From: Beroe forskalii
Taxonomy: Eukaryota; Ctenophora; Nuda; Beroida; Beroidae
Direction of reading: 5' to 3'
Length of the DNA stretch: 64,000 bases
Assembly (NCBI GenBank): GCA_011033025.1
Contig: WFMF01000120.1
Location: 186,001 to 250,000 of the forward strand
Numbering within the stretch: the first letter of the stretch is position 1; every line of letters begins with the position of its first letter. This document shows, one piece after another, positions 3,063 to 63,300 of the stretch. A model generated the notes under the pieces. That model was not told the origin of the DNA, ran no database searches, and saw only the letters and a list, made by a program, of their open reading frames with translations. Made by a program: the position numbers and the translations under genes.

Positions 3063-5625
3063 ACTCACGACATGCCCCAATGAGCAAAGAGACTATCAAT
3101 ATTTGAGTAGGATTTTCTGATAATTCAAGTAACATTGAGACTTTTAATTTCTGATTTATGGCATAATTAGGTACATAATTTACTGAGCATAATGGATCTA
3201 GATGAAGAGAGAATGATTGATTAAGTTTAACTAAGTGTTTAGTCGTATACAAGATTCACAGACCTGGCTCGACGGTTTCAGTAATAATACGAGTGAGTAG
3301 AAAGGTACTGACTAGGGTCTACAGTACAGCGGGAAGATGCCACATAAAGAATAAAGAAGAGATTATAAAGCAATGGGGTTTATAGTTAATACTAATGCTA
3401 CTAAATACTTAAATATACTGAACCCCAGCAATGATAAAACTATGAGCCAAGGAGTAGGTCTGAAGTTAAGCTCTGAGACACAAGACGTTTGATAATTACC
3501 TCCCAATCACTCAATCCGAAGGTACTCTAATAATGTGAAAGTGCTGAAGAGAAAGGCGTTGAAAGTCACAGCACATGAACATGTCTAGCTGGTATGTCTT
3601 TGCAGGGAGTCTACGAAAGAGTTATTCAAACAATCTACAGAACTATATACCAGAATATTCTAATATTGCACTTACAGCATCTCAGAATACTGCACGTAGA
3701 TTATAAGAACTGTCATTCTTAGGAAAGACGGAATATTTACACGTAGTTAGAAATGTTCCTTGGAATTGCATTTAGAAGTTTAGAGTCAGAGTTAAAACCC
3801 TACAGTTACACTTCACAAAGCATAACACTTCATAAAACATTATCAGGCGGCCTGGACACGTGGCTACAAATTCTGATTGACTCCATAAAAAGTCTGATAT
3901 GCAGGATCTTAGTCGACAATCGTCAATTTATATGCTAATGTGAAATGGATTTCGAACTATCTGAATTTTTGACAAGACCAATTACTGATGATAAATCTGC
4001 CGACTTGAGGCACGTAACTGTAGAAAAGGTCGTAGTAGTGATATGTATTCAAAAGGACAATTAGATAATGGATACCTTAAAAGATTATGAAATTCTACGC
4101 TGTTGTGGCTTTGTAACTTTGTAAGTTATGTAGCCTACAACAGGGTAGCCTCTATAAGCTATTAATAATTCAAGTGCTCAAGGGAAATTCATCAAAAATC
4201 ACAAAAATCAAAGAATTTGAAACTGAGACAGAGAAACTCGGTAAATGCAGCTCAATTACATCAGAGCCTTACCACGAATCACGTGTGTTAAGGTATAGCT
4301 AGCTCATCTAGTCATCAATATCAAAACCTGAAAATGATTAAAATATGAAGTCATTTCACACAATACACTACTCACTCAATGCCTCTCAGTCTGCTTTGTG
4401 GAATCTTTGAGGATAGAAACCTCACAGCTTCAACTCGAGAATAATCTTAGTAGTTTCAGGAGGAACAACCTTATAATTCCTCGCGTCAAGTCACAAGAAT
4501 TCAAATTTATCTCTTTACAGTATCTCTTTTAAGAATGAACTAATAGAAACAAGAATTTCGGAGGAAGACGCCCACTGTCAGCTCCACGAGCAAATCATAT
4601 AATGGCATACTTAGAATTCCCCAGATAGCAGTATAAAGCTTCAGCTGAGTACCTTGCAGTACCTTACTTAGTACCTTGCAGTATAACTGCTCCTGGAAAG
4701 TGGAAGTGATACTTCTACTGCAGCGAACAGAGTTACTCTAACTTAGAGTTAGTCAGAATTTAGTTAGTTAGTTAGTCAGAAGCCCTGATACGGAACTGCG
4801 CGCGTAACTGCATGTGTAAAGAATGAATGAACTTATTCGAACAGATGAATAACAAATATTCATCACAGTCCGGATTAGCAGATTATAGTTTGAACTTAAA
4901 ATTCCCTGGCCTCGTTTGTTCTCTCTGGAATGAAAGAATAACAGTCAATCACTGAATCGATATCTCAATGATTTTTATATGATTTGGATAGTGGACACGA
5001 ATCATCAAACATGCTTACATGATACGTCATGATACGACAGCAGAATTAGTGAATGCATGTTTTTCGGAGAATGAAGGAGCATAAGTAATGGTCATTACAT
5101 GTTCCCGTGTGATAGCTATCGGCGGTTTAATCAAGAAATTAAACTTTCGCCAATATCAAATAGGAACATATTGGCACAAATAAATACTTAAATAATGACG
5201 GGGAGTCATCTGAGCATGACTTCGAAATGAGTTTCTCAGCTTGACATCATTAGTTTTGTGATAAAGAAGGACCCGCGTGGTTCTTGTAAGATTTGAAACA
5301 TCTGAGAACATTCGAATACAAAGGTATGAGTTCCTTAAATCCCGGGAATTGCGGTGTAGCACAATACAATTATACATGGTTCAGTGCATGCAAACAAAGA
5401 TATTAGAGAGGTTTACCCAACCTTATTAAAATGTGCCATGGTATTTATCCATGTCTCAATCTTGCATATTTTTATGCATGAATAAATCTGCGGCCGAGAA
5501 ATCTGGAAAAGCATTTGTCATAAAACCACCATAATAACATAACCAATGTGAATTTAAATGCATAACAAGCAACCACGAATAAAGGTACAGTACGAAGGAA
5601 GGAGGCAAATGACCACATTGCAAAA
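3063..5625. other. intergenic, nothing recognised
   Basis: AT-rich. The only local structure is small: a TAGTTAGTTAG microsatellite near 4757-4778 and a GTACCTTGCAGTACCTTAC duplication near 4650-4685. No supported gene. Confidence 0.5.
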
Positions 5626-7323: not shown

Positions 7324-7799
7324 ATGCGACTTCTTACCCCCCCTCCCCGACTTTTTATCACCCGACCTTTTACCACCCTAAGAAACAAGTGCGACTTTTT
7401 ACCCCCCCCGTCCTATTAGTATTATTCAACCGAAGAAATTTGTGAACTTGAGGGACAGGTCAGAGGTAGGTGTACTTAGGGAGGAATTTCAGCTGCTTGA
7501 TACGTGGTAGTCCAATCGTTTCAAGGATCATGGCTAAAAAATGGGTGGACTTAACTCCGCCGCGGACCCGCTGCGGACCCGGTGGACCCGCTGCGGGTCC
7601 GCCGCGGACTCCACTAAAGTCCACCATAAATTTTTTTTGGTGGACTTTGGTGGACCCGCAGCGGACTTTTCGAAACTCCGCCGCGGAGTGGTGGGTCCGC
7701 TGCGGGTCCGCCCAGGCTCCGCCGCGCACTGGTGGACAGTCCACCGAAAAGTCCACCAAAAAAAGTCCACCGTGGACTAAAAATCAGGAGGTAAGTCCG

Positions 7800-8010
7800 C
7801 CGCGGAGTCAGTGGACTCCACCGGCGGAGTCCACTGGCGGAGTGGAGTCCACTGGCGGAGTCCACCAGTGGAGTCCACTGGTGGACTCCACTCCGCCAGT
7901 GGACTCAACTCCGCCAGTGGACTCGAATCCGCCAGTGGACTCGACTCCGCCGGTGGAATCCACCAGTAAACTCCACTGGTGGAATCTGCCAGTGGACTCC
8001 GCCATTAGGG
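7800..8010. repeat. GTGGACTCCGCC short tandem repeats, left arm
   Basis: Twelve- to eighteen-base words of the form GTGGACTCCRCYGG alternate in both orientations inside the left arm. The mirror-image counterpart lies at 9225-9420 in the right arm. Confidence 0.7.
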
Positions 8011-8149
8011 CTGTATGGTTTTTGGAAAGGAGTGCCATGTGCAGTACACATAGCTTTCTCAGATTCGGTCGATATTTCAAAGGGACCATCCATAAAGGGT
8101 GTCGCAATGAGGGGGGAGGGGTGAGTAGACCCTCTCAGATTTGATCGAT

Positions 8150-8265
8150 ATTTCAAAATCAACTTGGGAGCCATCCATAAAGGACGTCCGCAAAATTTTG
8201 GCCATTTCAGACCCCTCCCTCCCCCTTGTCCGCAAACGTCCGCAATCCGGAAACCCCTAATAGTA
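8150..8265. mobile_element. CCATCCATAAAGGACGTCCGC-type element fragment
   Basis: Contains AGCCATCCATAAAGGACGTCCGC followed by a C-rich block and GTCCGCAAACGTCCGCAATCCGG. The same words recur at 9150-9165 and 12745-13045, so it is a dispersed family. Confidence 0.5.
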
Positions 8266-8677
8266 ATTTCAATGCTTTTTCCAGCTGGAATTGGAAAAAG
8301 GGTATGTCCGGTGCGAACGTGAAATTAAGGATTTGGCCAAAAATAAACATGTTGAACACCTCTTTTTAAGACAAATGGGGGATGATTAGATTACCACCAA
8401 AAAGTTGATATTAGCCCAAATCTGAGAGGGTCCTGGGGGATTCTGGCCAATACGTCTCCCATGTAAACGAGAGCCTTCATTTTCCATGACAATGACGTCA
8501 CTCAGAAAAATATAATCAAGCGCATCTAGCGCTTTGAAGGTTATGGTCGGGATTAGGGTCAGGATTTGTTAGGTTTAGGGTCAGGATTAAGGTAAGGCCG
8601 GTTTTGGTAAGAGTCTCGGTAAGGTTTAGGATAGAGAAAAATTGACCTTCGGATCTGTGACGTCACTCAGCCCCGTT

Positions 8678-9135
8678 TACCTTATCGGACATATTTATCA
8701 CGGACATTAAATTCACGCTGAGCACCTCAGCGTGAATATTAATGTCCGTGAAAATTTTGTCCGTGATACTAATGTCCGTAATATTCAGGTCCGTGAAAAT
8801 TAAGTCCGGCATTTCGTCCTAAAATTTATAGGGTAGAGACGCAAAATTTCTGACCTCCTCTCTTGAAATGCACAAATAATAGAATTTGTAAGGAAATTAT
8901 GATTCTTTTTAATGCTTAGTACCTGCAATATGGAAATTTATTTTATTTATTAAAGAAAAATATTGAAAAAATCTTCAATTCAGGCATTCAAGTGGGAGAA
9001 AAATGGGAGAAATCGAGCCGATAATTTTGAAGATTTTTTGAAATTTGAAGTGGCTGGATCGAGCGTGAATATTAATGTCCGTGAAGTTTTATGTCCGTGA
9101 AACTAAAGTCTGTGATCATTATGTCCGATAAGGTA
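8678..9135. mobile_element. TA-flanked MITE, copy A (TACCTTATCGGACAT ends)
   Basis: The termini are inverted: TACCTTATCGGACAT on the left, ATGTCCGATAAGGTA on the right, each including the TA target site. Subterminal GTCCGTGAA words repeat inside both ends, together with AGCGTGAATATTAATGTCCGTG. There is no coding capacity. It is inserted inside the foldback element. The family recurs at 25.9 and 30.8 kb. Confidence 0.85.
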
Positions 9136-10052
9136 TATCGGACATAATGCGGACGTCCGCAATTCATGGAAATTTTGAGCGATTTGACGGCTATTTCACC
9201 AGAAAATCATGGAAAATGTTATCCGCGAGAGGACTCCGCTGGTGGAGTTGGACTCCACCTGTGGACTCCGCTGGTGGACTCCACCTGTGGACTCCACTGG
9301 TGGAATCCACCTGTGGACTCCGCTGGTGGACTCCACCTGTGGACTCCGCCGGTGGACCAAAGTCCGCTGGTGGAGTCCACCTGGGGAGTCCACCGGTGGA
9401 CAAAAACTCCGCGGTGGACTCCAATCCACGGCGGACTTTTTTCCCTGGTGGACTGTTTTGGTGGAATTTTTCGGTGGACTGTCCACCAGTGCGCGGCGGA
9501 GCCCGAGCGGACCCGCAGCGGACCCACCACTCCGCGGCGGAGTTTTGAAAAGTCCGCTGCGGGTCCACCAAAGTCCACCAAAAAAAATTTATGGTGGACT
9601 TTAGTGGAGTCCGCGGCGGACCCGCAGCGGGTCCACCGGGTCCGCAGCGGGTCCGCGGCGGAGTTTAGTCCACCCATTTTTTAGCCAGGATCATGGTGCG
9701 ATCCTTGACACCATTGCTCGAACGAGACAGCATCCCGTGAGTTCCTCTCCTAAATGTGACCCGGGGGGGGTGTAAAAGGTCGCAGTTAGGCAGTTCTACG
9801 GTTAGGTACGACTGTTTATCCCCATCGAAGCTTGAACGGGGATAAAAGGTCGCAGCGACTTTTTATCAACGACTTTTTATTCCCTGCTTCATTCCGGGGA
9901 TAATAAGTGGCAGTCTATAGCAGAAGTGCGTCTTTTTATCCCCCTCAGAATACAGTACAGATCAAAGGCGAAGCAGAGGGTAAAAGGTCGCACCTGTACC
10001 CTAGGGTGGTAAAAGGTCGGGGGATAAAAAGTCGGGGGGGTAAAGGTCGCAT

Positions 10053-15822: not shown

Positions 15823-18800
15823 CTACAGGGTAGTAGTAGTCTTCTCGAGGGTGGTTGCTAACATGGGCACCTTGTCAGCTTGTTGTCAGGGGTAGCCATG
15901 ACTACAGGGTAGTAGTAGTCTTCTCCAGGGTGGTTGCTAACATGGGCACCTTGTCAGCGTGTTGTCAGGGGTAGCCATGACTACAGGGTAGTAGTTGTCT
16001 TCTCGAGGGTGGTTGCCAACATGGGCACTTTGTCAGCGTGTTGTCAGGGGTTGCCATGACTACAGGGTAGTTGTAGTCTTCTCGAGGGTGGTTGCTAACA
16101 TGGGCACCTTGTCAGCTTGTTGTCAGGGGTTGCCATGACTACAGGGTAGTAGTAGTCTTCTCGAGGGTGGTTGCTAACATGGGCACCTTGTCAGCTTGTT
16201 GTCAGGGGTTGCCATGACTACAGTGTAGTAGTAGTCTTCTCGAGGGTGGTTGCTAACATGGGCACCTTGTCAGCGTGTTGTCAGGGGTAGCCATGACTAC
16301 AGGGTAGTAGTAGTCTTCTCGAGGGTGGTTGCTAACATGGTCACCTTGTCAGGGGTAGCCATGACTACAGGGTAGTAGTTGTCTTCTCGAGGGTGGTTGC
16401 TAACATGGGCACCTTGTCAGCTTGTTGTCAGGGGTTGCCATGACTACAGTGTAGTAGTAGTCTTCTCGAGGGTGGTTGCTAACATGGGCACCTTGTCAGC
16501 GTGTTGTCAGGGGTTGCCATGACTACAGGGTAGTAGTAGTCTTCTCGAGGGTGGTTGCTAACATGGGCACCTTGTCAGCTTGTTGTCAGGGGTAGCCATG
16601 ACTACAGTGTAGTAGTAGTCTTCTCGAGGGTGGTTGCTAACATGGGCACCTTGTCAGCTTGTTGTCAGGGGTTGCCATGACTACAGGGTAGTAGTAGTCT
16701 TCTCGAGGGTGGTTGCTAACATGGGCACCTTGTTAGCGTGTTGTCAGGGGTAGCCATGACTACAGGGTAGTAGTAGTCTTCTCCAGGGTGGTTGCTAACA
16801 TGGGCACCTTGTCAGCGTGTTGTCAGGGGTTGCCATGACTACAGGGTAGTAGTTGTCTTCTCTAGGGTGGTTGCTAACATGGGCACCTTGTCAGCGTGTT
16901 GTCAGGGGTAGCCATGACTACAGTGTAGTAGTAGTCTTCTCGAGGGTGGTTGCTCACATGGGCACCTTGTCAGCGTGTTGTCAGGGGTTGCCATGACTAC
17001 AGGGTAGTAGTTGTCTTCTCTAGGGTGGTTGCTAACATGGGCACCTTGTCAGCGTGTTGTCAGGGGTAGCCATGTCTACAGGGTAGTAGTTGTCTTCTCG
17101 AGGGTGGTTGCTAACATGGGCACCTTGTCAGCGTGTTGTCAGGGGTTGCCATGACTACAGGGTAGTAGTTAGTCTTCTCGAGGGTGGTTGCTAACATGGG
17201 CACCTTGTCAGCTTGTTGTCAGGGGTTGCCATGACTACAGGGTAGTAGTAGTCTTCTCGAGGGTGGTTGCTAACATGGGCACCTTGTCAGCTAGATGTCA
17301 GGGGTTGTCATGACTACAGGGTAGTAGTAGTCTTCTCGAGGGTGGTTGCTAACATGGGCACCTTGTCAGGGGTTGCCATGACTACAGGGTAGTAGTAGTC
17401 TTCTCCAGGGTGGTTGCTAACATGGGCACCTTGTCAGCTTGTTGTCAGGGGTTGTCATGACTACAGGGTAGTAGTAGTCTTCTCGAGGGTGGTTGCTAAC
17501 ATGGGCACCTTGTCAGCGTGTTGTCAGGGGTTGCCATGACTACAGTGTAGTAGTAGTCTTCTCGAGGGTGGTTGCTCACATGGGCACCTTGTCAGCGTGT
17601 TGTCAGGGGTTGCCATGACTACAGGGTAGTAGTTGTCTTCTCTAGGGTGGTTGCTAACATGGGCACCTTGTCAGCGTGTTGTCAGGGGTAGCCATGTCTA
17701 CAGGGTAGTAGTTGTCTTCTCGAGGGTGGTTGCTAACATGGGCACCTTGTCAGCGTGTTGTCAGGGGTTGCCATGACTACAGGGTAGTAGTAGTCTTCTC
17801 GAGGGTGGTTGCTAACATGGGCACCTTGTCAGCTTGTTGTCAGGGGTTGCCATGACTACAGGGTAGTAGTAGTCTTCTCGAGGGTGGTTGCTAACATGGG
17901 CACCTTGTCAGCGTGTTGTCAGGGGTTTCCATGACTACAGGGTAGTAGTTGTCTTCTCGAGGGTGGTTGCCAACATGGGCACCTTGTCAGCTTGTTGTCA
18001 GGGGTTGTCATGACTACAGGGTAGTAGTTGTCTTCTCGAGGGTGGTTGCTAACATGGGCACCTTGTCAGCTTGTTGCCAGGGGTAGCCATGACTACAGGG
18101 TAGTAGTAGTCTTCTCCAGGGTGGTTGCTAACATGGGCACCTTGTCAGCGTGTTGTCAGGGGTTGCCATGACTACAGGGTAGTAGTTGTCTTCTCGAGGG
18201 TGGTTGCTAACATGGGCACCTTGTCAGCTTGTTGTCAGGGGTTGTCATGACTACAGGGTAGTAGTAGTCTTCTCGAGGGTGGTTGCTAACATGGGCACCT
18301 TGTCAGCTTGTTGTCATGTTGACAGGGTAGTAGTAGTCTTCCAGGGCGCTTGTTGTCAGGGGTTTCCATGACTACAGGGTAGTAGTAGTCTTCGAGGGTG
18401 GTTGCTAACATGGGCACCTTGTTAGCGTGTTGTCAGGGGTTTCCATGACTACAGGGTAGTAGTAGTCTTCTCCAGGGTGGTTGCTAACATGGGCACCTTG
18501 TTAGCGTGTTGTCAGGGGTTTCCATGACTACAGGGTAGTAGTAGTCTTCTCCAGGGTGGTTGCTAACATGGGCACCTTGTCAGGGGTAGCCATGACTACA
18601 GGGTAGTAGTAGTCTTCTCGAGGGTGGTTGCTAACATGGGCACCTTGTCAGCTTGTTGTCAGGGGTAGCCATGACTACAGGGTAGTAGTAGTCTTCTCGA
18701 GGGTGGTTGCTAACATGTGCACCCTGTCAGCGTGTTGTCAGGGGTAGTCATGACTACAGGGTAGTAGTAGTCTTCTCGAGGGTGGTTGCTAACATGGGCA

Positions 18801-19407
18801 CCTTGTCAGCGTGTTGTCAGGGGTAGCCATGACTACAGGGTAGTAGTCTTCTCGAGGGTGGTTGCTAACATGGGCACCTTGTCAGCTTGTTGTCAGGGGT
18901 AGCCATGACTACAGGGTAGTAGTAGTCTTCTCGAGGGTGGTTGCTAACATGGGCACCTTGTCAGCTTGTTGTCAGGGGTAGCCATGACTACAGTGTAGTA
19001 GTAGTCTTCTCGAGGGTGGTTGCTAACATGGGCACCTTGTCAGGGGTTGCCATGACTACAGGGTAGTAGTAGTCTTCTCGAGGGTGGTTGCTAACATGGG
19101 CACCTTGTTAGCGTGTTGTCAGGGGTAGCCATGACTTCAGGGTAGTAGTAGTCTTCTCGAGGGTGGTTGCTAACATGGGCACCTTGTCAGGGGTTGCCAT
19201 GACTACAGGGTAGTAGTAGTCTTCTCGAGGGTGGTTGCTAACATGGACACCTTGTCAGCTTGTTGTCAGGGGTTGCCATGACTACAGGGTAGTAGTAGTC
19301 TTCTCGAGGGTGGTTGCTAACATGGGCAACTTGTCAGGGGTAGCCATGACTACAGGGTAGTAGTAGTCTTCTCAAGGGTGGTTGCTAACATGGGCATCTT
19401 GTCAGCT
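15823..19407. repeat. 3.6-kb satellite array of ~79-bp units
   Basis: Roughly 45 head-to-tail copies of a unit of about 79 bp containing AGTAGTAGTCTTCTCGAGGG, TGGTTGCTAACATGGGCACC, TTGTCAGCKTGTTGTCAGGG and GTWGCCATGACTACAGGGT. Recurrent variants (GCTTG/GCGTG, GGTAGCC/GGTTGCC, CTCGAG/CTCCAG/CTCTAG) are shared between non-adjacent units, and some units lack a 17-18 bp block, indicating unequal exchange. The last unit (from about 19370) fades into unique sequence. No coding role is supported. Confidence 0.95.
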
Positions 19408-42376: not shown

Positions 42377-45300
42377 CTGAGGGGCACACGGTTATTCAAG
42401 GGAGGAAATGTAGGGTGGGGTGGCGATGATATGCAATGGCGAATGAGCAAATGAGCAGCTGAGTTGGTGATAAGTTGGGGTTCCAAAACATTGATGTTAG
42501 ATTGCTCCGAGGTGGCAATGCTCTGAAGTGACAACTGGCCATGAGTTGTAGTGGGTTGGGTGCAGTGGGTTTTGAGAGGCAATGGGCTAATGGGAAGATA
42601 GCTAAGTGACGGGCTTGGTGAAAACGTTTCTCAGTTCACTGAGAAACGATCAACCCGATGTCCTCTTGATTCTCATAACAAAATGGTAGTTTCACAAAGG
42701 CTGATGTTCTTGCTATACAGCTTTAATAAAGTTTACTTTCATCTACAGCCTTTTCGGATATCCCATCTGACATCAGCTGACATCATATTCTCTTCTGAGG
42801 GCCTTGCAATGCAATAGTTTCAAACATTATTGAAGTTCTGTCCGGAATGTTGATTATGATGCAGCATGCTGATTGGGCAGTGTCGTGGGCATTGAGTCGT
42901 GAGGTAAATCAAGTCAAGTAGTTTCCATTTGGAATGATATGTAAGCATTTAGTCCGACGTTAATGGGTGTTAAGAGTATTTAACATTTTATAGAAAATTC
43001 GAAGGTCAGTACGTATACATTAAAGAGGTATTTACTTGTGTTGCCTGAGATAAATCTCGCTCAATCTTCTTGCAGAACCGGGTAAACATGACTTGTACCT
43101 AATCTAATGAGTAATCTATGACTTACAGGATTCCAAAATAAGAGTGTATTAGACCGAGGGCAGCAAAAGAATTCTGGTAAAAATGTTGAAAAGATGATTT
43201 CGCTGTAAATTTTCACTGTCATTAGTCAATGGCCATAGTTTTTTAAAGGATGAATAGGTACTTGATCTTAACTTGATGTGCCAATCAATAAATCAAGGGT
43301 CATATGAGACCACAGGTAGAGTAACAAGTGCCAGAAGTGGTGTCAAGCTCAGCCGTTCCGCTACTCAGGTTGCACCCTAACATGCGGTGCGTCGGGTGGT
43401 GTCAAGCATCGTTACACATTGCGATGAAAAGTATAAATACACCGCTCCCCTGAACGGTTTATCATCAATCGTCAATTTACAGTTTACTCCAGTCAACTAA
43501 ATCAAGAACCCGACTCAACATGTACTACAGCAGTGAATACAGTGAACCCTCATTCTTCTACCCAGATACCATCTACCAATCTTACCCTGTTGAAGCAGCT
43601 CTCCCTGAATCCATCTACCAACCTTACCCTCTCCGATGCCTCTTCTTGATGCCAACTGGGCCGTCCCCTTTCCTTCAGTTTTGCCTTCCCTGACAAAGAA
43701 TCTGCAACTGAAGTCCATGTGGCTGAAGCTCAAGAAAGCTATACTGCTGACGAAGTCACTTCTCATAACCCTGACTTCTCCTGCTTCCTTGAACAGACTG
43801 CCACCCAACCAGTTGACTCCACACCCAGTCCTCAGAGTGGTCCTGAAACCGAACCTTGTGGAACACCATCAGTCAACCAGCCGGAACCATGCATTCAACA
43901 ACCTCCCTCCCCAGTCCTTCCTTCTTCCCCAGCAATCACATCCAAGATGTTCCTCACAGCCCAATCCCTCCATGACAGACAGCAATGGGAGGAACTGAAG
44001 GACTACATCACTGATACCTGCTTCCCAACCTCAGAACACTCCGCTCTACAGACCCTCTACTACGAGTCTGTCTACGAGCTGTACAGGACAGAGCGCCGCC
44101 TCAGACGCCTCACTCCACCTCAGAGATACCGACTGAGGAAGAGCAACCCCCTGCCAGCTTCCATCTCGGAGTCAAGTTCAGTGCCAACAACCACTTTGAC
44201 GATAACACCAGATCTCTGCTGGAAGCTGTGTTCAAGAGGAGCAAACACCTGACTCCTGAGCTGGTCAACAATCTGATGGAGAACACTGGGCTATCAGCAA
44301 GGCAGATCAAGAACTACTTCAAGAACAAGAGGAGCAGAAAGTGAACATTTGTGTTGGTTTTGAGTGTTGGTTTTGAATATTAATTTTATTTCAATAAACC
44401 TCTGAATTAAAATCTGACTTATGACTTTACAACAGTAAAATACATCATTGGGGAACTCTCGCTTCATGAAATCTTCAAATTAAATCAAGATGTGTTTTCG
44501 GGTGAGTTGAGGAAGATGACTGTGTTGAGGAAGACGACTGTGTTGAGGAAGACGACTGTGTTGAGGAAGATGACTGTGTTGAGGAAGATGACTGTGTTGA
44601 GGAAGATGACTGTGTTGAGGAAGATGACTGTGTTGAGGAAGATGACTGTGTTGGAAGATGACTGTGTTAATGCCATAAGTTATGGCACCGCTGAGGACTG
44701 ACTCTAGAGATCTATGGCAATCAATGTTCAAAGCAAACGGCGCTAAATCATGAACTTTTGATGGCCAAACTTTTTGGTGTTTGAAGAATTATCATGGTTT
44801 GATAACTTATAGACTTACCAATGAAAGTCTGTGCAAGGATTTTTTTTTATATTTTCCAAGGAATTTTCAAATATAATTTGTAACAAATGCATTGTTATTC
44901 AAATCGTACATACTCAAAAGCATGTTAATGGTTACTGAGTAGGTGATGCGGTGATAAGTTGAGCATGTGATCAGATTAAAATATGGCCCTGGATAACAAG
45001 GTGTGGGCTGTGAGTGAAAAAAGCTGATGAAAAGCCTGAATCACCGTGCTCTAACTGAGAAGGGGGTGAACAGGAGTCAAAGGGAAGGTGGGGTAAGGAG
45101 TGGGGGATAGAATACCTGACACCATACTCAAAGCAACGAAGTAAAGCGACAAGTGAGGCGGGGTGGTCGAAGCAGATGCTGAGGAGCAAAGCAATGGGTG
45201 AAGCAGAAAGTGAGGCGTGATGGTCAAAGAGGATGCTTAGGAGCGAGGGGTGAAATGGTAATTGAGGCGGGATGGTCAAAGAGGATGCTGTGGAGCGAAG

Positions 45301-48300
45301 GGTGATGAGCGGGCAGAAGGAACTCGAGAGAGGAAAGAGAGAGGAAAAGATATAGGAACGGTGACGTCCCCCAGCCTACGCATGCCCCACGCATGGGACA
45401 CAAGCCCAACGGTACGTAGCCAGGCGAGTGTCGGAGGAGCACCTACTTCCCACACATATGTAGTAGGTGGCTGGATCACTACCAGCGCAAGTCGGAAACA
45501 CCTCCTCTTTTCCACTCAGCCATCTGGGATCCAAACTGAGTGGGACACTTAGACAACACCATTACCTGAAGAAGGGGAAAGAAGTGGAAAGCAAGAATTG
45601 AGTGGAGGAAGGAAGGTTGGCAAGGCTCAGTGACTTTTGATCTTCTCACCTGTCTTCTTGCACTTGAGGGACATTTTGTACATACACTTGATAGCTCTGG
45701 TCACTATCTGTATATGTTTCGAGTATTGTTCCTCAGTGATTGTGTGATTCTCGTCTGAGTTAGGAGTTATCTTTCCGATGCTGATGCAGTCAAGGGATAG
45801 TTCATTGTTGCAGTGTAGCTCCTGAAGCAGGGATGTCATTCTCACCAACTGGACAGTCTGAAAGAAGGTGTTCTTCATCTTCGATGATTCTCCTAACAGG
45901 TGCACAGAAGTCACATGATCTTTCGTCTCTGGGTATGTTAGAATGCCTGCCAACTTCGATGTTGAGCTTATGTGCACTGCATCGTAACCTCGATGACATT
46001 TTCTATCCTCAAAAGATTGAGCATGATCAAGATATGGCTCCCAGGTAATAGAGGTCTTGAGCTTGCTATAAAATGAAAGTCTGCTTGATTGGTCGATGGT
46101 AAATTTCCAAGATTGGGTGAGATGCTCCTTAAGTTGATTCTCGAATCTTTGGGGTGGAGTGGCATCAGCAAGAGACGGGAATTGATAACATCATCAGAGT
46201 TTTGATTGAAGTGATAACCATCTTCGGTTCCGAGCTTCAGCATGATGTACTTGATGTTTGTAAACCAGGGTAGATCCAGGTTGATTTGTTCGTCCATGGC
46301 TGCCCTCGCAAAGTTTGATGTATCAAGCTTAAATACCCTCTGGAAGAATTTGATGCACAGTTTCAGGCAACTGATGATAAGTGGGAAGTTACCTGTCTCA
46401 CCCCAGGCTGTACAGTTCGGGGAGTTGCGTCTTATGCCCAGTAGATATTTGAGATGTCGCAGGTGAACCTGTTCCAGTCCCATCCTTGCAATTTTAGGGA
46501 GACATCGATTGATGTTACCATCTCTATCAAGGCAGGAGTTAAGATGTTTCATGATTGGGAGAGTGGGTAACCATACCTGGCAACCGTAAGTAAGGATCGG
46601 TGTGATGAGGGAGTTGAAGAGCTGATTGTAGTTCATCGGATTAATGTATCTCCTGTCCACTGTGTTTCTAAGGGAGAAGTAAGCTCCAAGTCCCTTCTTG
46701 TACAGTGAATCCACAGCTTGTGAGAACTTACCATTACTACTGATAATGACACCAAGATAACAGTATGATGCAACCAGTTCAATAGTATTACCATTGATCT
46801 TTGGTCTCCAGGAACTGTCTGGACAGTCTGGGCATTTACCATTCAGCACCATGAACTTTGTTTTGGAGATGTTGACCTCTAAACCCCAAAGCATTACAAT
46901 AGTTTTCGATCACAGAGAGTTGCTTTTGAAGAGATTTGGTGTCTAAAGCAAGAATAACTAAGTCATCGGCCCATGCTAAATGAAATAGCTAGCCCCGAAA
47001 GAGATGGACAGTTCACTGGTAGTTCGTTGAGGAGGTTGGATAACTTCAGGAAGTACACCTTGAACAGTTCTGGGCTAAGTGGATGGCCTTGTTCTGTGCC
47101 TTTAGAGATGTTAAAGGCCTTGCTCAGCCGATTGTTTATTTTAATGTGACCGCTTGAACTACTGTACATGTTCTTGATGATGTTAAAGAATCCACCATTG
47201 ATGCCATAGCAAGCTAGCTTGAAGAAGTGCTTGGCGGCAGACCAGATCAAAAAGCCTTTCTTAGGTCAATGAATACAGCATACACCTTTTGTTTGAGCTT
47301 CTTATATTTTTCCATGATTGTGAGAAGGGTGAAGATATGATCATTGCACTGACTGCCTTTTTTAAAGCCTGCTTGGTTTGCAGGGTCAGGGAAGTGGGCA
47401 TCACGATCGACTATGAGGCGATTCAACAGCATAGAGGACAGTAGTTTGCCTAAGCAGCTACAAACAGCAATAGCTCTGTAATTGTCTGGATTTGCAATGT
47501 CACCCTTTTTGTGTAATGGTGTTATGACACTTTGATTCCAGATGTAAACACCAAGCCTGAGACAGGTATTGAAGAGGCAGAGGAGTAGGTTCTGGAGCCT
47601 ACTATCGAAAGCTTTGATGATTTCGTTGCTGACATGGTCAAAGGATGAAGCTTTGCAATGACAGACACCTGTCAATGTATAGAAGTATAGACTTACCAAT
47701 GAAAGTCTGTGCAATGACAGACACACAGCTGTCAATGTATAGAATATAGACTTACCAATGAAAGTCTGTGCAATGATAGACGGCTGTCAATGTATAGAAG
47801 TATAGACTTACCAATGAAAGTCTGTGCGATGACTGACAGACAGCTGTCAATGTATAGAATATAGACTTACCAATGAAAGTCTGTGCAATGATAGACGGCT
47901 GTCAATGTATAGAAGTATAGACTTACCAATGAAAGTCTGTGCGATGACTGACAGACAGCTGTCAATGTATAGAAGTATAGACTTACCAATGAAAGTCTGT
48001 GCAATGACAGACAGACAGCTGTCAATGTATAGAAGTATAGACTTACCAATGAAAGTCTGCGCTATGACAGACAGACAGCTGTCAATGTATAGAAGTATAG
48101 ACTTACCAATGAAAGTCTGTGCAATGATAGACGGCTGTCAATGTATAGAAGTATAGACTTACCAATGAAAGTCTGTGCTATGACAGACAGACAGCTGTCA
48201 ATGTTGTTATTCTTCCTCACATCAAACACCACATCGGGTGACTTTATGATACTGATCCAGTACCGCAGTGGAAGGGCATTGTTCTTCCACGTATGTAATA

Positions 48301-51300
48301 CCTGAAATGAGCTTAGATACTAAGCATGTTCCATAAATTCCTGACAATCATTGCAAAATGGTTCAACAATCTGGTGTCTCTATTCCGACATGAAGTTTTT
48401 GTATTTATTGAAGTTCATTTCTTCAATTTATATCAAAATGTGCTATTACTTATGGAACAGTCCAATGTGTTGCTGGAAATAGCTAAGGATACTGCCCATA
48501 ACACAACAACTGTACAGAATAATCAAGGAAATTACCTCCGGGTCTACGATCTGGAGTCTGGCTGCCTCCGAGTCTAGGAAGTCCATGAGGTACTTGATAC
48601 AGGGCGGGAGGGAGGTGATGCCCTCGTTGGGAGTGAAGATCACGTTAAAGAGGTCGTCTACGAACTTCTGGAGAGGTATCTTGGTGGCGGAGAGTCGTGT
48701 CAGGAACACCTCTGGCACTGTCTTTACCCCGGTCATGCCCTTGCCATCTCCGTCAGTGTCCACTTCCCTCTCGAGATGCCACACCCGACCACTGTCAATC
48801 TCACGGAGCAGAGAGTTGCAGCTGAGGGGAAGTGGGAAGGAGAGATTCTAGACATAAAAAACAGAAGTCTCAAAGTCTCAATAAACCTGTGTACAGGTAT
48901 GCTTGTAAATCACAGTTTTAGTTTACTTGGCTTCAGGATTATAAATTGTCCAAATTATCAACGTTCATTTCCTGACTTTAAAGCCATTGTACGTAAGCGC
49001 TATGCGATGATGTTTTGATATTGAGTTAGAGGTCGTAGGTCCAGTCCCCGGCCAAATTATTCACATTTCATAACAAAGCATTTGTTCCCAGTGTTGAACT
49101 GCGAAGCGTGCTTTGTTGAATCGACCTCACTCTCTCATTCAACAAGATGACATTTAATTGGGCCATTATCATTATTATTGAGAAGTTCAGCTCAACAATT
49201 ATATTTGGCAGAGCAATTTCTTGTTATGTTTGAATCATCATATAGACGTCAAATTTCTCAGAACCGGTCACAAAGAGTATTTGAACTATGAAGTAGTCAA
49301 GCCCAGTCAACCAATGAAATTCAACTCTGCCATTATTATGATTACAACCGTATGAAGTTAAACTCTTTCATCATATTATTATGATTGTATGACGAACTTG
49401 TACTCTTGTATTATTATTATGATTACCTGTATTATTATTATGATTACCTGGGTGCTCCCCCACTTTGTGACATGAAGGGCGGAGGACTTTGGCGGGGAAT
49501 ACATTGGAACACAGCCTGATCGTCTATATTGAGAGATCCCAGCGTATCTAGCTGCTTCCAACCATCCTGTGGGGGTGTGAAGTATTTTAGAGCGAGGGTG
49601 AGAGTAGCTTTGGATAAGCGAGGTTATTTCAGTGTGGTTGGAATAGTATGTGGATGGTGAGTGTTTGTGTATGATTATTAATTGGACGTGCCTGATTTTA
49701 TCAACAAAGAAGAGTATGGAATTGTGTCGTAGAAATCATAGTCTTGGGGTTCACCTTTGCATGGTTGTTTCACTTCGACTACAATCCATGAATGAGATGG
49801 ATCTTGAACGACTATAAATGAGCCAGCATTATTGTCATTACTTTGACAGCATTGAAGTTAAATATATTAACTTGACGATTCTCGCAATATTGGGATATTT
49901 TAGTACCAGTCCCACATTAATAAATATTTTAGTTCAAGTTCCTTATTAATAAATATTCTAGTCCCAGTTCCATATTAATAAATATTCTAGTCCCAGTTCC
50001 ATATTAATAAATATTCTAGTCCCAGTTCCATATTAATAAACTAATAAACCACCTTCCAAGATATCATCCTGACAGAAAATGAAGTCATTCAAGCCTTAAA
50101 TGAATCAAAATTTGGCAAATTACCAATTATAGAACCACAGCAGCGTGCTGTGTTTCGACCAATTTGAGTTGAGGGATATAACAACAAATTTGCCTTCCTT
50201 TTCGCTGATTGGTTGGGAAGGACCAGACCGTGGTTACTAGTTAGTATGTCAAGTCGTTTGGTATTTATATTATATGCCATTAACCCAGTAGATTTTTTAT
50301 GTCGATAAAATCAAACATTCGAACTTAAACTGAATTATGACAACCTCATTAACCTGGGTGGGTGGAGCATGTCCACGAGTCTGAGGGAACTAACCTGGGT
50401 TGGGTGGAGCATGTCCACGAGTCTGAGGGAACTAACCTGGGTGGGGTGGAGCATGTCCACGAGTCTGAGGGAACTAACCTGGGTGGGTGGAGCATGTCCA
50501 CGAGTCTGAGGGAACTAACCTGGGTGGGGTGGAGCATGTCCACGAGTCTGAGGGAACTAACCTGGGTGGGGTGGAGCATGTCCACGAGTCTGAGGGAACT
50601 AACCTGGGTGGGGTGGAGCATGTCCACGAGTCTGAGGGAACTAACCTGGGTGGGGTGGAGCATGTCCACGAGTCTGAGGGAACTAACCTGGGTGGGGTGG
50701 AGCATGTCCACGAGTCTGAGGAACTAACCTGGGTGGGGTGGAGCATGTCCACGAGTCTGAGGGAACTAACCTGGGTGGGGTGGAGCATGTCCACGAGTCT
50801 GAGGGAACTAACCTGGGTGGGGTGGAGCATGTCCACGAGTCTGAGGGAACTAACCTGGGTCGGGTGGAGCATGTCCACGAGTCTGAGGGAACTAACCTGG
50901 GTGGGGTGGAGCATGTCCACGAGTCTGAGGAACTAACCTGGGTGGGGTGGAGCATGTCCACGAGTCTGAGGGAACTAACCTGGGTGGGGTGGAGCATGTC
51001 CACGAGTCTGAGGAACTAACCTGGGTGGGGTGGAGCATGTCCACGAGTCTGAGGAACTAACCTGGGTGGGATGGAGCATGTCCACGAGTCTGAGGGAACT
51101 AACCTGGGTGGGGTGGAGCATGTCCACGAGTCTGAGGAACTAACCTGGGTGGGGTGGAGCATGTCCACGAGTCTGGGGAACTAACCTGGGTGGGGTGGAG
51201 CATGTCCACGAGTCTGAGGGAACTAATCTGGGTGGGTGGAGCATGTCCACGAGTCTGAGGGAACTAACCTGGGTGGGTGGAGCATGTCCACGAGGTCTAG

Positions 51301-54300
51301 GGGAACAACCTGGGTGGGGTGGAGCATGTCCACGAATATGAAATCTGGGTGGGTGGAGCATGTCCACGATCTGAGGGAACTAACCTGGGTGGGTGGAGCA
51401 TGTCCACGAGTCTAGGGGAACTAACCTGGGTGGGATGGGCATGTCCACGAGTCTGAGGAACCTGGGTGGGGTGGAGCATGTCCACGAGTCTGAGGGAACC
51501 AACCTGGGTGGGGTGGAGCATGTCCACGAGTCTGAGGGAACTAACCTGGGTGGGGTGGAGCATGTCCACGAGTCTGAGGGAACTAATCTGGGTGGGTGGA
51601 GCATGTCCACGAGTCTGAGGGAACTAACCTGGGTGGGTGGAGCATGTCCACGAGTCTAGGGGGAACTAACCTGGGTGGGATGGAGCATGTCCACGAGACT
51701 GAGGGAACTAACCTGGGTGGGTGGAGCATGTCCACGAGTCTGAGGAACGCTGGGTGGGGTGGTGCATGTCTAACCTGGGTGGGGTGGAGCATGTTACGAG
51801 TCTGAGGGAACTAACGACTTGGGGTCATGTCCACGAACCTGGCACGACTTGGGTGGGATGGAGCATGTCCACGAACCTGGCACGACGGGTGGGGTGGAGC
51901 ATGTCCAAACCTGGCACGACTTGAGGGGTGTGTATTCGAACCTGGCACGACTTGAGGGGTGTGTATTCGAACCTGGCACGAGGAGGAGGAGGATCCCGCT
52001 TTCTTCCAGTCCACATCCACATCATTAGGGGTGGGTTTGAGAGAGTCAGGCACAGTGCGGTACATGGCGTCTATTATCTTACCCTTAGCTTGGGAGATGG
52101 TGTCACAGGACAGCAAAGACACCTGGCACGAGGAGATGATGAGAAAATAGGAAGAGATTATTAAATAAGATAACAGCATATGATAAGGGGAGAGTGGTAG
52201 ACAGAGAGGATGGTGAGATCAGAGATGTGATTCCTAAATAGCTAAATGTATCATTAGGAGTGAAGCGTGTTATGTTAATATAATAATAATGGTAGAATTT
52301 TGGCCACATTGCCAACTCTGGTCGTTCATAAATACCATATTTATCTCAACCCATTTACGATTCACACGATAATTGATTAAAATTTCGAGGGGAGTGTATT
52401 CGAACCTGGCACGACTTGAGGGGTGTGTGGGCGGTGTCGTTTAGATAAGGATCATCTTCCAGGTACACCATAACGTTTAGTTTCTTGAAGTCTGTGATCT
52501 TACTCAGCAGATTCTTCTCGTGGAGTGCGTACCTCGCGTTTCCAGTGATGTAGTCCACCGGGCCCTTCTCTATCTGAGTGGGGGGATGAGAGATGAATAG
52601 GGTTCCAGTTTTACTTTTTATAGTTGTTTTTAATTTTCTGTAGCTTCTGACTAAAATTCTCCCGAATCAGTTATATTATAACTTCAATCTCTTGAGTTCA
52701 ATTGTAGTTTTATTGGGCACTATTTGGTCCGACAATGCTTTGGTGGATAAAATTGTGGAAGAAAATAATGAAAACAAAGGCATTTTGACCAAGAGATACT
52801 CTATGGCAAACAAATCGATGCAGGCATAACATTGAGCAGATTACTGGGGGTTCATCTTGGTAAATACATGGCATACCTGTCATACCTTGGATCACATGGC
52901 ATACCTGTTGCTTGATAGCCCTGTACAACATACCTGTTGCTTGATAGCCCTGTTCAACATACCTGTTGCTTGATAGCCCTGTACAACATACCTGTTGCTT
53001 GATAGCCCTGTACAACATACTAACATACCTGTTGCTTGATAGCCCTGTACAACATACTAACATACCTGTCTTGATAGCCCTGTACAACATACCTGTTGCT
53101 TGATAGCCCTGTACAACATACCTGTTGCTTGATAGCCCTGTACAACATACCTGTTGCTTGATAGCCCTGTACAACATTCCTGTTGCTTGATAGCCCTGTA
53201 CAACATACCTGTTGCTTGATAGCCCTGTACAACATACCTGTTGCTTGATAGCCCTGTACAACATACCTGTTGCTTGATAGCCCTGTACAACATACCTGTA
53301 GCTTGATAGCCCTGTTCAACATACCTGTTGCTTGATAGCCCTGTACAACATACCTGTTGCTTGATAGCCCTGTACAACATACCTGTTGCTTGATAGCCCT
53401 GTACAACATACCTGTTGCTTGATAGCCCTGTACAACACATAGAGGGGTTGTCCAGCCGAGTCTCTGAGGAAGGAGTAGAAGTTGAACGTCAGCCAGTTAC
53501 TGAGGTACTTCTCAGTAATGTGCTCTGATCGCCTCAGCAACAGCTTGACACGTCGTAAGTCACTCGTCACCGTGCTGAAGATTTAATACAGGCTCAGCTA
53601 TTGTTTGTGTTTAATGTACCCAGTCATCCAGTGCTTGATTCTCTCCTCTACAGTCCTTGTTCTTCAGTTTTTGCTCTTAATTATTTTCTAATTTCAAACT
53701 AAAATCTTGAGATGCACATGATTAGGAACAGCACAATCTGGGGATTATAAGGCCTTCACTCACTCGGTGATAAGCTTTGAGAGCAGTCTCCTCAGGATTA
53801 GGGTGGTGTAACTCATGTCATCCATGAGGGATACGATCATTAGAGCTGCTATGTTGCTCTTGTCACGCTTAGAGACTTGCCGCTGGGATATATTCCTGAG
53901 TTTAATTCATCAATAATTAATGGGGTGTCTGTCATACTATACTCCATCACACAGTCGAAGCAGGTGGCATTTCATCATGACGTGGTAAATCATGCTGGAC
54001 AAACTTCACAGACAGTTTGACTGACGTTTGAAAGAGCAAAGAGGGCGCAGTGAATTCATAGAATCTGCGTATTGTGACGTAAAATTTGAAATGCTTCGAC
54101 AGGTTGCAAAAATCAAATAAAATCAGCTAAACCTGGCTATCTAGCGTCTCCACGAGAGTTAGCAGGAACTGTTCCTGTTTTACAAGCTTCTCGAAGACAG
54201 TCAGACTGTCCTCGTAGCTGGCTATGTCAGGAGGATCATGGAGCACGGGGTAGTCTTCTTGTCCTGGTGGAATGAGATATTACCAGGCGGAGTGGGTATT

Positions 54301-60300: not shown

Positions 60301-63300
60301 TGGAACTCGTCGGCAAGGTACTCAGTCCGGCCGTTGACACTGCTCAGCATGACACGACCCCCGAACGGCATTTGCACTTCCCGTGTCTTGCACGTCACCC
60401 TGGGAGGGGGGTTACAACAAAATGGGCTGGGAGTCTTGCTTCAATGGGAAGCAGAAACTGTGATATCTGGCGTATAATCCCGTATTCGGAAGGAACTGCA
60501 TGAAATTACTCGAGCCCTCGGCTTCCATGTTACAATGCTGAACTTTGCTAAATTTGTAGAACGTTTGGTTAGAGAGACTTACCGAGTTGATACCTTATAG
60601 CCTGTCTCCTGTAGCTCACAGATAATGCCCCCAACAGTGATGTTACGGATATCAGAGAACTTGATACTCAGGTCTACCCCTTCTAGTGTCAGTAGAGTGC
60701 CGCCCTGCACTGGCCCAACCAACGGGTAAATCTGAGGGAGAGAGGGTAAACTTGGAGTTGAGTGGGTAAACTTGGAGAAGAGTGTGTAAATCTGTGTTAA
60801 AATGGGTGGATCTACGTGAGCATCTACTAGAATGAATATTCTAGAAAATGGGTTCGCTACTGGAGAACTATTCCTAGATGATATCCCTATTGGAAAATGG
60901 TATTTCACAGTGAGTATTATAAGCTTAGAACAGTGGCACAATGCACATGGTTCCTGAACTAATTTGAATATGCTGGTGATTGTTGGTGACTTCCCTCCTT
61001 TTATCCGTGGATGTTTGTATCAAATACGGACAACTCATCGATTGTGATATGATAATGGGGAATGGGCGACCTGGAAAACATGCCATTACACTTTTTGAGC
61101 TAGTTTTGAAAATTAGGGGGGGGGGGCTAAATTTCATAAGTGAATTTTCACACTTAAAAGCCTTGATTTGCTAAAATACAGATAAAATAATGTTTTCTGT
61201 TTGCTTTAATTCCGAAAATATGGATTTCCAGGAAACTTCAGTTTATTTGAACTTGATTGAACACTTAATTTTGATGTTCAAAATTTTGAGAAAATCTTAG
61301 GTAGGGCCAATCCCCCACCCCTAAGATTTTTCTAGGGGGGCCTTTGAAAAACTAGGGAGGGGGGCTGGCCCCCTCTAGGGGGGGGCCGTGTAGTCCCATG
61401 CTGGACGAGATATGTCATATTATGGGCATGTCATATTATTGTGGAGTGTGCTGGGACTGACTGGAAGAGTAGCGGCTGGGGGCTTACATACTTACATAGT
61501 ATGTATGTCGTATGGAGCTGGTGTCATGAGCGGTCTTATTTAATCTAAATCTATGAATCGATTATGGTAAAAATACTCGTGGGTGGGTTTATCGAATGTA
61601 TCATGTTTGCTGCTGGGTGGCCTTATCAAATGTGGCACTGCTTGATGAGGTAAATTGAATGCAGCATGATACATTATAATATGTGGATGCGAGGGTGGCA
61701 TATCATGTGTTTAAACATAAAGCTAAGTGGTATTTCAATTAAGGGAGCCGTCACTTATTAATTCATCAATTTTTTGCCATTTTCAACCCCCTCCCCCGTC
61801 TTTCAGAATATATTATCATTGGCTGACCACCTCGCCCATGCTGACGTCTGCATTGACCATGCTGACGTCTTAATAGTCATGATTTGATTGAAACCACCCC
61901 CTTAGGGGCCTTGCCCGTTTTATGGGCTATGGCTAAAGAAATATACAGGGTACTTGTGTACTTATAAATATAAAACCCACAAATCTTCTAATATTTCTTA
62001 AAATTTTCCCCTAAATTTGATACATATCAAACTAAAACTTTCAGAATAATGGCGCGAAAACAATTAAGTTTATGTGGGACCACTATTGCGAAAAACTTAA
62101 ATCAGCACAAATTTCCAAACATCTAAAAAGGATTTCTGAGAAGATGAACATACGGCACCAATCAGCCACTCCCACCCATAGTCCTAATTCTCGAAGTGAT
62201 TGTACCGTCCCTGATGACGTGGGACTTGTGAGGCTCCTCCGCGATCTTTTTCCTGAGTTGCACCACCAGCTTTCTCTGGACCTCTCGTTCCTCCTCTGAC
62301 TGGTCTGGACACAGAAACACCCTCGTGAACCTGGCCGATTTTTTCAGTTCTGAGCTCTTCCTGAGGATCTGCTGCGCTGCTGCTGCGTCATCTGATTTCT
62401 AGAAAGTAATCTCGATTTGCCAAAATTCTCACATCAAAAATTAAAATTCTTGCAGATAATTTGCAATCACCTGTTAATACCATTTAATGATTTGCTGCTT
62501 TACATAAAGACATAAAGGAGGTCGCATAGGGCTGCAGCAGATGATAATAAAAAATGCAAAAACCATCCAACCGAATAAATGTTATTTTAATTCAAAATTT
62601 TGGTGCCAACCGCAACCTTAATTAACACATTGTCAAAACCGTAGCTTTCGATTGCGTCTTTGCTGTGGTGCGTCATTTTTGTTACTGTAGTAATTGCTTT
62701 TTATTATATATTTCTTAATCAAGGCATTTCTGAGAATTTTACCGGAGTATATAAATAAGCGACCTAATAATCAGCTTTTAGTTTTGCAGCTGCAATGCGA
62801 AAGCATTCATATAGGAACCCCTCCTTGGGCCACATTATAAGCTTTCACATTATATATGATCTAGCCTCTGCACTCTGCAGACGGAGGCTTCATTATCCAA
62901 TGACACAGATAATGGCATCAAAGATGTGTTTTTTTAAAGGATAAGGTTTACTAGGGTAGCGTCTGGTTAACTTCAAAGTAAGAATTATTCAGAGTAAGAA
63001 TTATAGCACCTAATAGCGAAGGTGAGGGTAAGGTTTTTCAGGATTACAAAAGTTAGAAGTATTTTACCACCAGTTTCTACTACCGTCCTTTTTATATTTT
63101 ACCAACTTTCGATGTGTTGTTTTCGATCTATGAGCACACATACCAGTTACAGTTACCTAACCTCTGACAGTGAAATTTCGCTGCCTTGATATACCGTGTA
63201 CACAGAGATACTTCAGGTCACATTTTTATGAATGATCAAATTGAAAACTGTCTGTACCTTGCCAGAATCTGTTCCCCGGCCTACCCTAATGGTATCATTG

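Follow-up and report, generated by a model that had tools for sequence, protein, structure and literature searches.

Tandem arrays at the splice sites of a plexin gene

We analyzed a 64,000-nucleotide stretch of the genome of the ctenophore Beroe forskalii (GenBank assembly GCA_011033025.1, contig WFMF01000120.1, positions 186,001 to 250,000 of the forward strand), referred to below as the window. On its minus strand lies a plexin gene in which several exons run directly into minisatellites; all plexin features described here are on that strand. Exons K to S extend from 55255 down to 48163 and yield 476 open residues when joined at their outermost splice sites. The joined product matched Plexin_cytopl (E=4.3e-110), Plexin_RBD (E=2.7e-19) and Plexin-A1 (3ryt; E=2.7e-119). 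Alignment to Plexin-A1 placed exon N (53412..53574, ending in YRAIKQQ and followed by the donor GTATGT), exon P (51973..52122), exon Q (49448..49566) and exon S (48163..48301), while exon O (52406..52573) has the donor edge TCGTGCCAG/GTTCG, the slash marking the splice junction. Exon N joins exon O without a gap in the alignment, and the junction of exons P and Q is in phase 0. The exon P join is nine residues shorter than Plexin-A1, so a small exon may have gone undetected there. On homology and reading frame, the exon calls can be regarded as firm. Exon A, which we take to be IPT-like, occupies 60583..60731 and starts at the acceptor CCCTCAG/ATTTACCC. Four plexins are reported in Mnemiopsis (PMC6374515).

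Arrays whose units combine the last exonic bases with the splice donor are real at exons N, P, Q and S. They were called with Tandem Repeats Finder (TRF) and by direct reading of the sequence, and both approaches agreed with the initial annotation, which had placed such arrays at the exons ending at 53412, 49448 and 48163. The array at exon N (52900..53437) comprises 18 copies of a 29-bp unit that holds GTATGT and 23 exonic bases. Successive units are in most cases spaced 29 bp apart, a spacing of 37 bp occurring twice and spacings of 27 and 28 bp once each, and the scanned stretch contains 17 CAG/GTATG sites including the real donor, with one further site just outside, in line with the approximately 17 copies annotated initially. 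At exon S (47660..48204), 56- to 60-bp units carry GTAAGT, and the array takes in about 42 bases of the exon; nine GTAAGT sites, the real donor among them, match the earlier estimate of about 58 bp in nine copies. The exon Q array (49407..49450) had been described as two to three copies of about 23 bp. The array was found there, but TRF gave a GTAATC-containing unit of 21 bp in 2.1 copies, with 3 exonic bases.

The array at exon P is continuous (50350..51981). It begins without a break at the exon end (51973) and passes through 31-bp and 34/38-bp units into 33 units of 35 to 42 bp, most of them with CAG/GTT, down to about 50350. The repeats reported between 50.35 and 51.97 kb as a fourth, separate array are thus present but continue the one that starts at the exon. 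Its 31-bp unit corresponds to the donor edge of exon O (52406), sharing no fewer than 19 bases on the exonic side and 12 on the intronic side, but agrees with the edge of exon P itself in just 9 exonic bases. As the fit to exon O goes beyond that to exon P, the array at exon P seems to hold a copy of the donor edge of the exon before it. TCGTGCCAG/GT is present at three sites, namely, the exon O donor (52406), the exon P acceptor (52122) and the exon P donor (51973).

A probable acceptor-edge array precedes exon A at 60739..60790 (TRF, period 20 in 2.6 copies). It stops 8 bp short of the acceptor (60731), and its (A/G)TTTACCC unit, judged by eye, probably resembles the exon A start ATTTACCC. 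Both this array and the exon O edge in the exon P array had escaped the initial annotation. The distance from array end to acceptor is 326 bp for the N array, at least 328 bp for the P arrays and 585 bp for the Q array. Within the arrays, units differ from one another by substitutions and indels, and the copies of exonic sequence carry indels; most units retain a recognizable donor.

Pattern matching identified 61 inner donors in the plexin arrays (16 at exon N, 36 at P, 1 at Q and 8 at S). Use of 59 of them would cause a frameshift or a stop; only two, N +87 and P +96, keep the frame and are free of stops. The initial suggestion that such arrays diversify splicing is thus not supported at the level of the plexin protein and was rejected there on frame; splicing would be expected at the outermost sites. 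The LVDMLHPTQ piece, initially considered exon-like, was rejected as a microexon, as 28 nucleotides lie between its AG and GT and the flanking exons P and Q are in phase 0, which makes an in-frame exon with those sites impossible.

A reverse-transcriptase element on the same strand as plexin occupies 44841-47655 (RVT_1, E=1.5e-9), and the exon S array stops where this element starts. A stray 33-bp exon S unit is found beyond the element (44808..44840), after an A-rich stretch, and TTGCA marks both the broken end of the array and the beginning of the stray unit. The simplest reading would be that a long interspersed nuclear element (LINE) inserted into the exon S array and split it.

Arrays at exon edges in myosin and dynein genes

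We located myosin-head and dynein DHC_N2 exons by profile and retained 24 loci forming compact clusters (57 of 78 myosin matches and 58 of 80 dynein matches), designated by L numbers. From 91 adjacent hit pairs, 64 introns with matching phase were obtained (31 in myosin and 33 in dynein genes) and 27 pairs were dropped. For a second test, each edge of 12 further introns or gaps was set individually and 15 pairs were skipped, giving 76, of which those 12 may hide an exon. A script based on a generic matrix placed the splice sites. In these introns the outermost sites agree with the spacing of the Pfam profile, usually exactly, but by construction, as best-scoring pairs were taken.

Outside the window, 7 of the 76 introns or gaps have an array extending at least 3 bp into an exon. 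At donors, TRF called 55 bp in 12 copies with 45 exonic bases in the dynein locus L032, 32 bp in 3 copies with 22 exonic bases in L026, and 22 bp in 2 copies with 4 exonic bases in L021. At acceptors, it called 34 bp in 8 copies with 6 exonic bases in the myosin locus L018, 69 bp in 32 copies with 38 exonic bases in L020, and, in a separate intron of L026, 32 bp in 2.3 copies with 5 exonic bases. A single intron of L034 has arrays at both edges (donor, 38 bp in 2 copies with 3 exonic bases; acceptor, 47 bp in 4 copies with 5 exonic bases). Edge-spanning arrays hence occur at both types of boundary, at acceptors in L018, L020, L026 and L034 and at donors in L021, L026, L032, L034 and plexin, and they are distributed over several contigs and three gene families. 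The arrays of L030 and L033 merely abut the acceptor, and two-copy donor duplications in L030 and L017 are absent from the TRF list. In L034 (1158-2029, sense), copies of the acceptor and exon start (CCTCCCACCTGCAG/GATCATGAACTGGGAGAGCAAGT) are scattered within an intronic array of CCCCTCAGTA type.

To relate the arrays to other sequences, we searched the assembly (216 Mb, 1134 contigs); the search scored the best candidates only and skipped very common words. When portions of the N, P, S and L020 arrays served as queries, each matched its own locus only, except for the stray exon S unit. Within this search, none of the queried arrays (N, P, S, L020 and L032) had another full copy beyond its own locus or a paralogous copy. 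Within its scope, the claim that the units are mutually unrelated was upheld, the units of these five arrays are locus-private, and one spreading repeat was rejected for them.

The L032 region has an inverted paralogous copy, a dynein fragment with an array of unequal length, on the same contig (G000:C712:67029-68029 and 75764-77638). The array match spans roughly 1.6 kb in the copy versus 645 bp in L032, or about 30 units, as estimated from coordinates, versus about 12. The greater length of the paralogous array would fit an unstable minisatellite. The 112 bases preceding the L032 array had no match in the inverted copy.

Two of the seven array introns have a counterpart at the identical position in a paralog, and the counterpart lacks an edge-spanning array. 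In L018, the array intron lies at myosin 378.0, where L015 and L016 also have an intron; the one in L016 contains an array that ends 21 bp before the acceptor. In L033, the intron position is dynein 313.67 and is shared with L028, where no more than a weak 10-bp repeat was seen, close to the donor. For the other five array introns, no partner was found within the small myosin and dynein sample.

Frequency of arrays at exon edges

Tandem repeats detected by TRF cover 16.7% of the window and 6 to 25% of eight sampled 10-kb stretches, and the median intron length is 247 bp. We scored an array as touching an edge when its end fell within 5 bp of it. When arrays were confined to introns under the null, 8 of 25 touched an edge in the 64 introns versus 1.04 expected (P=3e-6), and 10 of 31 did so in the 76 introns or gaps versus 1.1 expected (P=3e-8). 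This test was not taken as the headline result, since a duplication that starts within the exon is also tolerable. In a fairer null, the start of the duplication may lie as much as one unit within the exon, and the duplication survives if the outermost splice site remains intact. Under that null we applied score cut-offs of 30, 40, 50 and 80 to the 64 introns and of 40, 50 and 80 to the 76. In the 64 introns, 10 of 46 arrays touched an edge at a score of at least 30 (6.87 expected, P=0.13), 9 of 30 at 40 or more (5.37 expected, P=0.063) and 8 of 25 at 50 or more (4.67 expected, P=0.066); in the larger set, the count was 11 of 41 at 40 or more (5.78 expected, P=0.016). Arrays reaching at least 3 bp into the exon, at scores of at least 50, numbered 8 in the 76 introns or gaps (3.75 expected, P=0.020) and 6 in the 64 introns (3.55 expected, P=0.12).

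Tandem copies of a ±12-bp window were detected at 5 of 128 edges. The corresponding rate was 15.8% of 11,988 tests in introns (7.2% as a mean over the 64 introns) and 0.27% of 10,380 tests in exons. Edges thus resemble intron and exon sequence mixed together, with array ends modestly overrepresented there; how large this excess appears is decided by the choice of null. As tolerated duplications that arise anywhere would already yield roughly half of the edge contacts or more, no edge-directed process is required. The recurrent process at exon edges proposed initially is borne out as to recurrence, in myosin and dynein genes, but not as to a specific action at edges.

Origin of the arrays

We consider it probable that these are minisatellites of the type called mirages in amphioxus, that is, ordinary tandem duplications that happen to cross splice junctions and are tolerated there. 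In a genome rich in minisatellites, slippage, unequal exchange or template switching would generate a tandem duplication straddling a splice junction. Coding bases and splice site would be retained in the outermost copy, leaving the extra copies within the intron, where they are tolerated. The array would then grow and homogenize as other intronic minisatellites do and remain nearly neutral, with splicing continuing at the outermost site.

Several observations weigh against this explanation. Under the fairer null, the edge excess reached nominal significance in the 76 introns or gaps at scores of at least 50, where the same 10 of 31 arrays compare with 4.95 expected (P=0.012), a roughly twofold difference. 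It did so too at scores of at least 80, both in this set (10 of 20 versus 3.91 expected, P=0.001) and in the 64 introns (8 of 17 versus 3.78 expected, P=0.015). In plexin, which was picked for the trait, 3 of 5 arrays touched an edge versus 0.43 expected (P=0.004); this count covers 16 introns, those after exon S and before exon A lying outside it. Plain local slippage does not explain the neighboring exon O edge in the exon P array. Lastly, the outermost donor of exon P (GTTCGA) scores 2.2 bits with a generic matrix versus 5.9 bits for most inner ones (GTTAGT), so selection by simple strength would not favor the outermost site. There may be a roughly twofold excess at edges over the fairer null, possibly reflecting longer persistence of arrays beside conserved exons or a modest mutational bias. 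A bolder proposal, which we regard as doubtful, is that duplications arise or are kept preferentially at junctions at about twice the neutral rate, that edges are copied from exon to exon as from plexin O to P, that a sizeable share of introns holds competing, near-identical sites, and that the spliceosome takes the outermost one even where inner sites score higher.

The high-score excess, the plexin count despite its ascertainment and the transfer of the exon O edge to exon P would all suit a mutational process directed to exon-intron junctions, through breaks or R-loops tied to transcription or splicing or through AG/GT microhomology. We judge such a process unlikely, as the excess in the 64 introns was not significant at the three lower cut-offs, the gaps that may hide exons bias the larger set toward an excess, and tandem copies of the ±12-bp window were rarer at edges than the mean over introns. 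It is more improbable that the arrays are traces of intron birth, in which tandem duplication of an exon segment containing AG/GT makes an intron flanked by units. This mechanism has been proposed for amphioxus globins (PMC3087553), and the arrays at both edges of one L034 intron recall it, but these have unlike units of 38 and 47 bp, the plexin arrays end before the opposite intron edge, and two of the seven array introns lie at positions common to a paralog.

Retention of the arrays for a splicing role, as spare sites that buffer mutation or as decoys that tune expression through unproductive transcripts, appears very improbable. Most units keep a recognizable donor, and nearly all inner plexin donors would indeed yield unproductive transcripts. 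However, homogenization alone preserves unit sequence, the frame shows no sign of selection, with indels in the exonic-sequence copies, and amphioxus mirages are reported to leave the mRNA undisturbed (PMC3902484, PMC3087553). That the assembler inflated or created the arrays is hardly credible. Copy numbers may be inexact, but substitutions and indels distinguish the units of an array, edge arrays recur across contigs and gene families, and a reverse-transcriptase element apparently sits inside one of them.

If the sampled rate of 7 in 76, obtained from compact myosin and dynein loci only, holds more widely, many introns would contain runs of near-identical donors or acceptors. Such introns offer a ready-made experiment on the choice among these sites: exon definition predicts use of the outermost one, and intron definition, in introns this short, the innermost. 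A null that allows for tolerated duplications is needed before arrays of this kind are called directed or functional.

Other features of the window and the assembly

Two further repeat regions were found in the window, a 3.6-kb array at 15823-19406 (46 copies of a 79-bp unit, with 42 AGGT on the minus strand) and a cluster of short arrays at 7809-9423 with TGGACTCCACCGG-like, partly self-complementary units. In L019 (996-1492, sense), one myosin exon is present in two tandem versions (profile about 105-170), possibly alternative exons. On the minus strand of L010, adjoining open frames at 4728-5510 and 7407-8159 carry kinase domain ends and are perhaps tandem paralogs; 60-bp arrays lie both in the interval separating them and farther out.

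The eight random 10-kb stretches proved too exon-poor for the edge test. They held 449 open reading frames (ORFs) of at least 50 amino acids, 440 of which were aligned in three sets. One set of 144 gave 5 families, and of 10 long ORFs scanned singly, 5 had a family, including two kinase-like and two transporter-like ones.

Amphioxus COX1 is probably far more conserved than the mitochondrial COX1 here, which is T-rich and divergent, uses TGA for tryptophan and has AGA opposite a conserved mammalian COX1 arginine at two places. ARAGORN with the bacterial code detected no tRNA in 2.8 kb of the COX1 contig. Five ctenophore mitochondrial genomes are described as 9,961 to 11,574 bp long, with derived sequences, no tRNAs and the mould code except in P. 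bachei (PMC5924465). The COX1 contig here, at 13,339 bp, exceeds that range.

Comparison with known systems

In the Rogers model of intron gain by tandem genomic duplication, as cited in PMC3087553, a sequence holding a splice site is likewise duplicated in tandem. There the outcome is a new intron, whereas the duplications here affect one edge, and at least two lie in introns that a paralog has as well. Arrays of dual-specific splice sites of the UBC type also have AGGT sites within tandem units, but in them the intron is described as a multiple of the unit and one site serves as both donor and acceptor (PMC10809524). The plexin arrays end far from the acceptor, and the donor and acceptor units of L034 differ. 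In human segmental duplications, minisatellites with an average unit of about 30 bp are reported at exon-intron boundaries (PMC2812944). Unlike the present arrays, they are described there as varying between recent paralogs and as associated with changed or newly formed introns that transcripts support.

The closest resemblance is to amphioxus mirages, tandem repeats across exon-intron boundaries at both donors and acceptors in Adh3, globin, troponin C and PGBD5 genes (PMC3087553, PMC3902484); the amphioxus precedent that the initial annotation had pointed to thus exists (PMC3087553). The accounts in these papers give gene-specific units of tens to about 160 bp, many of them with AG/GT. In B. 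forskalii, boundary-spanning units were found in plexin N, P, Q and S and in L018, L020, L021, L026 (two introns), L032 and L034, at both 5′ and 3′ boundaries, and the units of the four arrays queried together with L032 are unrelated between genes. The open joined plexin frame would be consistent with an undisturbed mature mRNA. The present arrays differ in belonging to another lineage, in reaching up to 32 copies, in having a rate among sampled introns that is set against an explicit null, and in being known from the genome alone. Among the matches listed in openly licensed PubMed Central, by titles and abstract starts, none reported such arrays in ctenophores. Ctenophores are thus probably a new lineage for mirage-type arrays, which suggests that mirages are more than an oddity of amphioxus.

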